The notes beneath the pieces were generated by a model. The model was given only the letters and a program-made list of their open reading frames with translations, was not told the DNA's origin and did no database searches. This document shows positions 1 through 9,235 of a DNA stretch of 34,400 nucleotides, one piece after another. The first letter of the stretch is position 1. Every line of letters starts with the position of its first letter. Source of the DNA: Candidatus Thioglobus sp. (GTDB taxonomy: Bacteria > Pseudomonadota > Gammaproteobacteria > PS1 > Pseudothioglobaceae); the NCBI GenBank assembly GCA_012964205.1, contig DTUI01000072.1, forward strand, positions 1 to 34,400, in the 5' to 3' direction. The position numbers and the translations under genes were made by a program.

Positions 1-76
1 TGGTGCCGAAGACCGGACTCGAACTGGTGACCTACTGATTACAAATCAGTTGCACTACCAACTGTGCTACTTCGGC
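1..76 (-). tRNA. tRNA-Thr (anticodon UGU), CCA encoded
   Basis: Reverse complement GCCGAAG...CTGATTTGTAATCAG...CTTCGGCACCA folds as a cloverleaf: 7-bp acceptor GCCGAAG/CTTCGGC, anticodon loop TTTGTAA with TGT. Confidence 0.95.
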
Positions 77-202: not shown

Positions 203-1369
203 TTAGAATCTTGGGCCTGCAGTTACAGCTACTGAAGCTTGCCTTAATGCATTGACTGCTTGAGTATTTGCTCTAGCTGCCAAGCTAGCATCCTTTGTCT
301 TTTTAGCTTCTTTAATCAACTTTCCTGTATCTCTCCAACCAGAATTTTGAGCTACGTTCTTTTTATAGTTTGCCTCAGCCGCTGCAATCACATCAGCGAA
401 TGAATCGCTTTTTGCAATCACTGGTGCGTACTTAGCATCTTTTGATACTGCTACTTTTTTAGGTGCTGGCTTAACTGGATCTCCGCCACCTAATTGGTGT
501 ACATAAATTACAAGCTTCTTAAGCTGTACTGCATCGATCACGTTTGAATGACCAAAAGCCGGCATTATTGCATTTTGAGTTTGCGCATCTACTGGGTTGT
601 TTACACCATGCAGAATAGTACGAACCACTGAAGCATGCTGATCTTCTGCCTTAAAGCGATAAATACCATCACTTAAATTGGCAGAGCCAAGCATTTGATT
701 ACCCTTCAATGTTGGACCGTGACAACCGATACATCCTTTAGAAAAGTATAATGCCTTTGAAGCTGGGTTAGGGTTACCTTGCGCACCTTTACCTGTTTCA
801 ATTAAGAAGGTTGCAAGCTCAGCCGCTTGTGCGTCAGTAATACCGAGCATACGAGCAGGCATATTACCTTTACGACCGTTTTTAATAGTTTGCTCAATTT
901 TAGCTAATGAACCACCATATAACCAATCATCGTCAGCTAACACTGGGAAGCCGTCATTACCTTGTCCACCTGCACCATGACATGCAGCACAGTTGTCACC
1001 AAATAGGGTTTTAGCTGTTTTAATCGAATAGGTTCTTAATTCATCATCACGAACAATATCTTCCAATGAGCTGTCTGCAATTGCTTGTTCAGTAGCGGCA
1101 AACTTTCTTTCACGATATTCTTCAAGTTGTGCAACACTTTCCTTCATTTCAGTGATCTGAGTCCAGCCAGCTGAACCTTTATAGTGATCACCAAACCAAG
1201 GAATACTCGGATAGTAGAATGAATAAATAACAATCGCTACCAAGCCTACTAGCATAGACTGCATGTACCAACGTGGCGGTCGATTGTTTAACTCTCTTAG
1301 ATCCTGCTCATCATCCCAAAAGTGACCTGTATTGTTTTCACCTGGGAATGGATTTTTATGTTCGCTCAT
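203..1369 (-). CDS. ccoP: cbb3-type cytochrome c oxidase subunit III (diheme c), with long C-terminal extension
   Basis: 388 aa; N-terminal TM; two CxxCH motifs (CAACH, CIGCH); last gene of ccoNOQP. Confidence 0.95.
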   Translation of the reverse strand: MSEHKNPFPGENNTGHFWDDEQDLRELNNRPPRWYMQSMLVGLVAIVIYSFYYPSIPWFGDHYKGSAGWTQITEMKESVAQLEEYRERKFAATEQAIADSSLEDIVRDDELRTYSIKTAKTLFGDNCAACHGAGGQGNDGFPVLADDDWLYGGSLAKIEQTIKNGRKGNMPARMLGITDAQAAELATFLIETGKGAQGNPNPASKALYFSKGCIGCHGPTLKGNQMLGSANLSDGIYRFKAEDQHASVVRTILHGVNNPVDAQTQNAIMPAFGHSNVIDAVQLKKLVIYVHQLGGGDPVKPAPKKVAVSKDAKYAPVIAKSDSFADVIAAAEANYKKNVAQNSGWRDTGKLIKEAKKTKDASLAARANTQAVNALRQASVAVTAGPRF

Positions 1370-1381
1370 TATCTTCTCCTC

Positions 1382-1528
1382 TTAACGTTCGTCATCATCA
1401 TTGACAAAATTTCGTAAGTCTTCAAATTGTTGCTTATTTTTTGGCCTATAGGCATAAAAATAAGCGCCTGCTAATAAAACAAATACGACGACTGCTGTTG
1501 CTGCACCAATTTTATCAACTAAAGTCAT
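1382..1528 (-). CDS. ccoQ: cbb3-type oxidase subunit CcoQ (48 aa, not in ORF track)
   Basis: My translation: [53 protein letters not shown] overlap with the ccoO stop; lies between ccoO and ccoP. Confidence 0.9.
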   Translation of the reverse strand: MTLVDKIGAATAVVVFVLLAGAYFYAYRPKNKQQFEDLRNFVNDDDER

Positions 1529-2259
1529 TATTCGCGGTAAGTAACGCCGTTTTCAAATTTAATCATTGTGCCTAATGTTTGTAAATAAGCAACCATCGCA
1601 TCCATTTCAGTTTTGCCTGCAACTGCTTTTTCAGCACTTGCAATATCTGCATCTGTATATGGCACACCCACTTTTCTTAGTCCGCTCATGTGTGTGGCAA
1701 TTTCTTCACCATCAACCATTGCATTTTCTAAGAATTTATACTTAGGCATTACTGACTCTGGCACTAATGCTTGTGGATGACGCAAATGCAAGATATGCCA
1801 CTCATCTGAATATTTACCACCAACACGCGCTAGATCAGGGCCTGTTCTTTTAGAGCCCCACTGGAACGGATGATCATATACTGATTCCACTGCTAGAGAG
1901 AAGTGGCCATAACGCTCTTTCTCATCTCTGAATGGACGAATCATTTGTGAATGACACAAGTAACAACCTTCACGTTGATAGATGTCACGTCCTGCTACCT
2001 CTAAAGGTGTATTAGGGCGAACACCATCGCCAGCTTTCCAATCAGACAAAGACTGATCTTCAGCACGCTGCCAAAGCAAGCTTTGTGTACTGCCATCTGC
2101 TAGCGTCACTTCATCTTTAATTGTTTCAGGATTTGTGAACAAAGGCACAATTTGTACAATACCGGCTAATGACACAGCTAGCGCCATAAACAAGTACATT
2201 GCAAAAATGTTCTTTTCTAGTTTAGTTTGTAAGCTCTCTTTTCCATTATTATTTGCCAT
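1528..2259 (-). CDS. ccoO: cbb3-type cytochrome c oxidase subunit II (monoheme c)
   Basis: 243 aa; CYLCH heme motif; '[24 protein letters not shown]' is typical CcoO. Confidence 0.97.
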
Positions 2260-2270
2260 GATGATCTCCC

Positions 2271-3689
2271 TTATGCGTTGGCTGTTTGCACAGATTCCGA
2301 TCTACGGATCGTACTAACAATATTGATTAACATAATGATTGCACCAATAAGCACTAGCACACCTCCCGTTGCTCTCATTACATAATAAGGGTGCATCGCA
2401 GATACCGACTCAGCAAATGTGTATGCTAATGTACCGTACTCATCGTACGCTCTCCACATCAAACCTTGCATGATGCCAGATACCCACATTGCAACAATGT
2501 ATGTCACTGTACCAATGGTGTGCACCCAGAAGTGAGTAGCCATTAATTTTTGATTCATTCTTACGTTGTAGATTCTTTCAATCATGTGATACATTGCACC
2601 TGCGGCAACCATAATGTTCCAGCCTAATGCACCTGCATGTACGTGACCAATAGTCCAGTCCGTGTAATGCGATAATGCATTTACGTTTTTAGCGGCCATT
2701 ACTGGACCTTCAAAAGTAGCCATTGCATAGAATGCTAACGACATAATTAAGAAACGTAAGATGTAGTCTTCACGTAAACGATCCCATGCACCTGATAGGG
2801 TCAAGATTCCGTTTAGCGCACCACCCCATGATGGGATGATCATTGCAAGAGAAATTGTTGCACCTAATGAGCCCGCCCAATCTGGCAATGCTGTGTATTG
2901 TAGGTGATGAGCACCTAACCATACATAACCAAACATCAATGCCCAGAAATGGATCACAGATAGACGGTATGAATATACTGGTCGCTCTGCTTGCTTAGGA
3001 ACAAAGTAGTACATCATTCCCAAGAAGCCTGCTGTTAAGAAAAATCCAACGGCGTTATGACCCCACCACCACTGAATCATTGCATCTTGCACGCCAGAGA
3101 AAATAGAATAAGATTTAAACCAATCTACTGGAATAGACAGATTGTTAACTACGTGAAGATAAGTTACCATCACCATCATGCCCATAAAGAACCAGTTCGC
3201 TACATAAACATGCGGCACCTTGTTGCGATCACGGACGTGAATTGTCATAACAAAATTGTATAAATATGACGCCCAAGATAAGGTAATTAGGATGTCAATT
3301 GGCCATTCTAATTCTGCATATTCTTTAGACTGAGTTAACCCTAAAGGCAGTGTTATCACAGCAAGAAGGATCACTGTATTCCATGACCAGAAAGTAAACC
3401 AAGCCATCTTATTAGACCAAAGGCGTACCTGATTAGTTCGCTGTACAATGTAGAAAGCTGTTGCCATTAGTGCCGATCCACCAAAAGCGAAAATTACCGC
3501 ATTAGTATGAAGCGGTCTAAGACGACCAAATTGGAAGTAAGGAAGGTCTGTACCCAGATCGTTTAAGAATGGGAAGGCCAACTCGGAAGCGATGTATACG
3601 CCTAGCAGTGTACCAACCACTAAGTAAACTGATGCCATAATGGTAAACCACTTGACAACGCCTAAGTCATACTTTTCTGTTAAATTCAT
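2271..3689 (-). CDS. ccoN: cbb3-type cytochrome c oxidase subunit I
   Basis: 472 aa polytopic heme-copper oxidase subunit with CcoN-type sequence ('[31 protein letters not shown]'). Confidence 0.97.
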
Positions 3690-7957: not shown

Positions 7958-9094
7958 TTAACGAGCAGATTTAACATCTGAAGGTTGAACCACGCTACCA
8001 GTATTTCCAAATGCGTTACGCTCATAAGTAATAACAGAGGCAAGATCTGCATCACCCAGCATTTTAAATGTTGGCATTCCAGCTTTGCCGTGTAGTACGA
8101 TTGTCATATGCTCCGAAGCTATACCGTTTGCAATAGCAGAGTCTTTTATGGCTGGAAAAATTGGCGGCATACCAGAGCCATCCATCTTATGACAGCCTGC
8201 GCAATTTGATTCATACACTTTCTTACCCTTAGACATTAGGTCGGCTTTTGACCAAACCTGGGTAGCACTTGCAATAGCAGCAGCAGCACTTGCCTGCTCT
8301 TTTTCAACCCATTTAGCATAATCTGCCTTAGAGACTACATCAACAACAATTGGCATAAAGCCATGGTCTTTGCCACATAGCTCAGCACATTGGCCACGAT
8401 AGGTACCGATTTTATCGACCTTAGCCCATGCATCATTAATAAAGCCCGGATTAGCATCTTGCTTCACGCCGAAATCTAAAACCCACCAGTTATGAATTAC
8501 GTCGTTCGAAGTAATCAAGAAACGAATTGAAGTATCGACTGGCAAAACAAGACGCTTATCTACTTCCAATAGGTAGTTATCAACACTTGTCGCACCTGTT
8601 TTGTAGTTCTCATTGTTTAGATTATCTATATCTGAAGCGACTGAATCCTTAGAAGTTTTTGCCAAATTAGAAATAAAGCTTATACCTTCTTTAGGATAGT
8701 CATATTGCCACTTCCATTGGTGTCCTGTGACCTTAACGGTCATTTCAGCCTTGGACGTATCCTCTAAATCAATTAATGTTTTAGAGGCGGGAATAGCCAT
8801 TCCCACTAAGATAACAACTGGAACCAGTGTCCATAGAATTTCTGCTTTAGTGCTTTCATGGAATTGGGCTGCGACAGCGCCTTTGGATTTTCTATGAGCA
8901 AAAACAGAATAGAACATTGCGCCGAATACGATCGCAGCAATCACCACACATACCCAGAAAACCATCATATGTAGATCGTAGATATCATGGCTGATTGAAG
9001 TAACGCCTTCAGTCATGTTTAAGCCGTATTCTGAAAATACTGCTGTAGATAATAACGCTATAGACGATGCTATAACCTTTGATAATTTGCCCAT
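7958..9094 (-). CDS. ctaC: Cytochrome c oxidase subunit II with C-terminal cytochrome c domain
   Basis: CuA motif 'CAELCGKDHGFM', heme motif 'CAGCH'. Start at MGKLSKV (9094), preceded by a G-rich RBS, preferred over the track's 9145. Confidence 0.94.
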   Translation of the reverse strand: MGKLSKVIASSIALLSTAVFSEYGLNMTEGVTSISHDIYDLHMMVFWVCVVIAAIVFGAMFYSVFAHRKSKGAVAAQFHESTKAEILWTLVPVVILVGMAIPASKTLIDLEDTSKAEMTVKVTGHQWKWQYDYPKEGISFISNLAKTSKDSVASDIDNLNNENYKTGATSVDNYLLEVDKRLVLPVDTSIRFLITSNDVIHNWWVLDFGVKQDANPGFINDAWAKVDKIGTYRGQCAELCGKDHGFMPIVVDVVSKADYAKWVEKEQASAAAAIASATQVWSKADLMSKGKKVYESNCAGCHKMDGSGMPPIFPAIKDSAIANGIASEHMTIVLHGKAGMPTFKMLGDADLASVITYERNAFGNTGSVVQPSDVKSAR

Positions 9095-9235
9095 ATACCC
9101 CCCCAGATAAAAGCAGTCGCCTGTGTGAAATACCAGACTGATCAAAAAATTTAGAGCTATCTTACTATAGATTTTTAGCTTGTTGCACTATTTTTTAAGA
9201 ATAAAATTAATTTAAATCAAGGTTAAATAATATTC

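Follow-up and report, generated by a model that had tools for sequence, protein, structure and literature searches.

A SoxK-like tail on the CcoP subunit of the cbb3 oxidase in SUP05/Thioglobus relatives, a candidate link between thiosulfate oxidation and oxygen respiration

Among the SoxAX types, it is type III, with a monoheme SoxA, that depends on SoxK (PMC4003848; PMC4891895), a protein described as holding SoxX and SoxA together (PMC3368242; PMC4891895). SoxK, or SAXB, is known from Chlorobium tepidum and Allochromatium vinosum and is represented by the NCBIfam model NF052674. Additions to the C-terminus of CcoP, subunit III of the cbb3 oxidase, have been described separately. In Neisseria, a third heme domain on CcoP alters electron flow to nitrite reductase, and this triheme form has been called unique to the genus (PMC2924362). 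In Rhodobacter capsulatus, an engineered bc1–CcoP–cyt cy fusion (PDB 6xkx/6xkz) works with a domain on the CcoP C-terminus (PMC7876108). By analogy, these two cases show that fusions at this end of CcoP can work. SUP05 bacteria are sulfur oxidizers of O2-poor settings, namely oxygen minimum zones and plumes, and possess a high-affinity cbb3 oxidase (PMC5928099).

The window analyzed here is a stretch of 34,400 nucleotides from Candidatus Thioglobus sp. (contig DTUI01000072.1, positions 1 to 34,400). A ccoNOQP locus lies at its start, with the following features.

1..76, minus strand: tRNA-Thr, directly downstream of ccoP and a same-locus marker in tailed and tailless relatives
203..1369, minus strand: ccoP, cbb3 oxidase subunit III with a SAXB/SoxK-like tail, 388 residues
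479..1369, minus strand: canonical CcoP part, residues 1–297, with the FixP_N membrane anchor and two heme-c domains (CxxCH)
410..481, minus strand: linker, approximately residues 297–320, rich in Lys, Ala, Pro, and Val
206..409, minus strand: SAXB/SoxK-like three-helix tail, residues 321–388, ending in AGPRF; assigned from the NF052674 match, the predicted helices, and the tail clade
1382..1528, minus strand: small ccoQ-like open reading frame, 48 residues, named from its position between ccoO and ccoP
1528..2259, minus strand: ccoO, over the TIGR00781 cut-off
2271..3689, minus strand: ccoN, over the TIGR00780 cut-off

The ccoP product combines FixP_N with two cytochrome domains, whose CxxCH motifs are at residues 127 and 213, and is encoded in an operon with ccoN and ccoO upstream. 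The CcoP model TIGR00782 scores 193.6 bits against a cut-off of 179.95 and covers residues 12–297. Since the model stops at residue 297, positions 203–481 (residues 297–388 and the stop codon) form an extension past a complete CcoP, in agreement with the preliminary description, which had claimed a C-terminal extension of ~90 residues. After the canonical end at about residue 297 comes a linker of ~24 residues and then a three-helix domain of ~68 residues. The ccoQ-like frame has no family match in a family search of the window.

The preliminary description had also likened the extension to SoxK-like proteins, and this family call stands. A profile search matches NF052674 to residues 318–381 (E = 4.6e-8); Pfam gives no match in the tail. 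The tail's 33.5 bits miss the equivalog cut-off of 95 bits, and the sox-linked saxB of the same genome is also under it, at 57.6 bits. When CcoP is searched against its own genome, exactly one other place is found, C91:15779-16006, with 58% identity to residues 320–388. This is the free saxB/soxK gene, which encodes a protein of 108 residues with a signal-like N-terminus and lies directly behind soxX, soxY, soxZ, and soxA. The tail aligns to this saxB with a score of 175, whereas 2000 shuffles average 32.6 and reach at most 73, so the likeness is no chance resemblance. SoxA of this genome has a single CxxCH and is over the TIGR04484 cut-off, and its SoxAX is classed as type III with a monoheme SoxA.

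NF052674 is not specific to SAXB. Within the Gammaproteobacteria it also scores LysM-domain lipoproteins and a rhodanese fusion beside soxXA, and a LysM lipoprotein reaches 83 bits, above the 57 of the family's sox-linked saxB and the 33 of the tail. The family call for the tail therefore rests on the tree and on synteny, and with these, sequence comparison confirms the tail as a SoxK/SAXB domain. The equivalog model extends into a broader superfamily of WRDT hairpins, part of it near DUF4398. Its LysM-type lipoprotein matches are L070, L074, L078–L082, L084–L086, and L088. Beside soxXA, at L065:1492-2460 and L069:1444-2433, a SAXB-type domain is joined to a rhodanese domain, possibly as a SoxK–SoxL fusion.

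Alignment with free SAXB shows that the tail keeps the core motif (WRDT, A, L-A, Q) and the AGPRF-like end. Seven residues between helices 2 and 3 are present in nearly all free SAXBs of close relatives and missing in the tail; among the tails, only that of G018 retains them. The tails also have consistent residues of their own, ANYKK and QAVNAL. The window's tail thus resembles the SoxK/SAXB of Chlorobium tepidum and Allochromatium vinosum in its helical domain, its WRDT-x-K motif, its soxA-linked relatives, and a genome with type III monoheme SoxA. It differs in being the C-terminus of CcoP instead of a free secreted protein beside soxXA (the free copy is separate), in its shorter helix 2–3 loop, in its score under the model cut-off, and in that its binding of SoxXA is proposed from homology. 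AlphaFold2 predicts three helices for free SAXB at 36–53, 59–73, and 77–103, mostly with pLDDT >90. In the full CcoP prediction the tail helices span 324–340, 346–358, and 361–383, mostly at pLDDT 85–95, so that the two are predicted to share the same three-helix arrangement. Neither sequence search nor fold search found a related solved structure.

The distribution of the tail was surveyed in 83 genomes of the family (SUP05/Thioglobus relatives) and an earlier set of relatives. The tail is present on CcoP in 14 genomes, the window's own, G000, and 13 others, from four genera of this one family; named carriers include Candidatus Thioglobus pontius and Candidatus Thioglobus perditus. Diheme CcoP with the tail has 379–393 residues (G000, G004, G005, G006, G010, G011, G018, G020, G026, G101; in G001 it is split over two contigs), and the tailless diheme form has 300–322 (G002, G003, G008, G009, and the symbiont genus g2). 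CcoP of a named Candidatus Ruthia record has no tail. Three genomes (G032, G098, G102) encode a triheme CcoP of 485–487 residues in which a c5-like domain precedes the tail, G099 and G100 a triheme CcoP without the tail, and G017 a tetraheme CcoP without it. The same fusion in 14 genomes rules out a frameshift or assembly artefact.

Every one of the 14 genomes with the tail carries soxA (partial in G004), followed closely by a free saxB. The tail is not required, since many relatives that possess soxA do without it. In genus g3, which has no soxA, both the SUP05-type CcoP and the tail are absent. Beyond the family, 339 genomes of the class and 399 of the phylum, two overlapping draws, were searched with a profile that runs across the CcoP end into the tail, and no fusion was found. 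Neither outcome that the preliminary description had named as refuting its reading is seen: a SoxK-like profile matches the tail, and in these samples the tail is confined to genomes with soxA rather than common in CcoP of organisms that do not oxidize sulfur. Long CcoP reading frames in other members of the class, of up to 392 residues, owe their length to an N-terminal stop-to-stop overhang and have no C-terminal SAXB tail. No relative was found on viral contigs.

The 14 tails group together as a single clade (97/97), which the tree places inside the family's soxA-adjacent saxB genes (98/96), near those of G018 and G027; the alignment has only 74 columns, which makes the inner forks uncertain. 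In the tree of the CcoP core, tailless forms are scattered among tailed ones. The ccoP–tRNA-Thr neighborhood is seen in tail genomes wherever the contig is long enough and, in nearly all checkable genomes, does not differ between tailed and tailless forms; G017 has no tRNA-Thr beside ccoP. Because the tails are monophyletic while tailless cores intersperse at the same locus, the simplest history is a single duplication of saxB and its fusion to ccoP, followed by several losses. A search downstream of tailless ccoP genes found no tail relic, and the weak matches look like chance. Across six codon-aligned genomes, dN/dS is ~0.055 in the core, ~0.20 in the linker (residues 297–318), and ~0.07 in the tail (0.068 over 70 codons), rough values given synonymous sites near saturation. 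The tail is under purifying selection, and the pattern is as expected if a flexible tether carries a folded domain with a function.

We propose with moderate confidence that the tail arose from a saxB duplicate fused to the 3′ end of ccoP and holds SoxXA at the CcoP hemes. This model builds on what is established: the architecture, the tail's homology to soxA-linked SoxK and its single origin, its conservation, and its co-occurrence with soxA. A soxA-adjacent copy of saxB was duplicated and fused once to ccoP in an ancestor of several SUP05/Thioglobus-related genera, so that the subunit through which electrons enter the cbb3 oxidase in the periplasm bears a flexibly tethered SoxK module. The module would bind SoxXA (type III, with monoheme SoxA) as free SoxK does, beside the CcoP hemes. 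Electrons from thiosulfate would then reach CcoP from SoxX either directly or by way of a nearby c-type domain, with less reliance on a diffusing cytochrome, and free SoxK would be retained for the soluble SoxXA pool. From homology and domain context we infer such docking and direct coupling, which the preliminary description had also suggested and which is the most likely function of those considered.

The evidence also bears on other roles. The loss of seven residues between helices 2 and 3 means that the tail's partner may have shifted. Together with the residues ANYKK and QAVNAL, the shortened loop would suit a SAXB-derived adaptor that has taken a new partner, such as a free c-type cytochrome like c5, SoxYZ, or another periplasmic protein, and the wider hairpin superfamily does occur in LysM lipoproteins and rhodanese fusions. 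However, the core motif and AGPRF-like end are kept, the nearest relatives are soxA-linked, and every carrier has soxA, so we regard a change of partner as unlikely, if worth keeping in mind. The tail could instead have an internal structural role, stabilizing CcoP or the assembly of cbb3 with no contact to Sox; it belongs to a subunit under purifying selection, and free SoxK itself stabilizes SoxAX (PMC4891895). Yet orthologous CcoPs at the same locus manage without the tail, which is attached by a fast-evolving linker, and this role appears quite improbable. Loss in several lineages would even be compatible with a neutral passenger of a chance fusion, but a dN/dS near that of the catalytic core and retention across the four genera make this very hard to credit.

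If the tail docks SoxXA as the SoxK model proposes, the fusion may plug thiosulfate oxidation straight into oxygen respiration. The fused module makes a direct thiosulfate-to-oxygen electron route testable. A more tentative extension, which we would sooner doubt than accept, is a natural Sox–oxidase supercomplex in which SoxXA, with SoxK, sits on cbb3 through the CcoP module, assisted in some relatives by a c5 wire, and passes thiosulfate electrons to O2 at trace oxygen with no need of a diffusible carrier. As far as the literature was searched (subscription journals are poorly covered), it gives no account of a CcoP–SoxK fusion, in SUP05 or otherwise, and CcoP–SoxK is thus a conserved architecture of two known parts, undescribed in the literature searched.

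The nearest natural parallel is the triheme CcoP of Neisseria, where a duplicate of another electron-transport part, a c5 domain, was likewise joined through a low-complexity linker to the C-terminus of CcoP and later lost in one lineage (PMC2924362). The window's tail differs in having no heme and in being a proposed binding module tied to sulfur oxidation, and G032, G098, and G102 combine both kinds of addition. The engineered Rhodobacter capsulatus fusion differs in being artificial and in that its added part is a cytochrome. Since relatives have a c5-like insert before the tail, or extra cytochrome domains in its stead, the end of CcoP is suggested to be an electron-entry point, a place where sulfur oxidizers may hang modular parts such as SoxK, c5, and other cytochrome domains.

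The c5-like third heme domain lies between CcoP and the SAXB tail at L043:1501-2955, L046:424-1884, and L047:554-2014; triheme CcoP with this domain and no tail is found at L055:1252-2448 and L057:611-1831. Free proteins related to the inserted domain occur in the family, at up to 68% identity, and the triheme CcoP of SUP05 relatives looks like a case independent of Neisseria. CcoP of genus g7 (G017, L090:1128-2627) has two extra tandem cytochrome c domains, for four CxxCH motifs in all. The window also encodes a bc1 complex and a caa3-type oxidase, a neighboring aa3-type enzyme whose subunit II, at 7958–9145, carries a cytochrome c domain of its own at the C-terminus.
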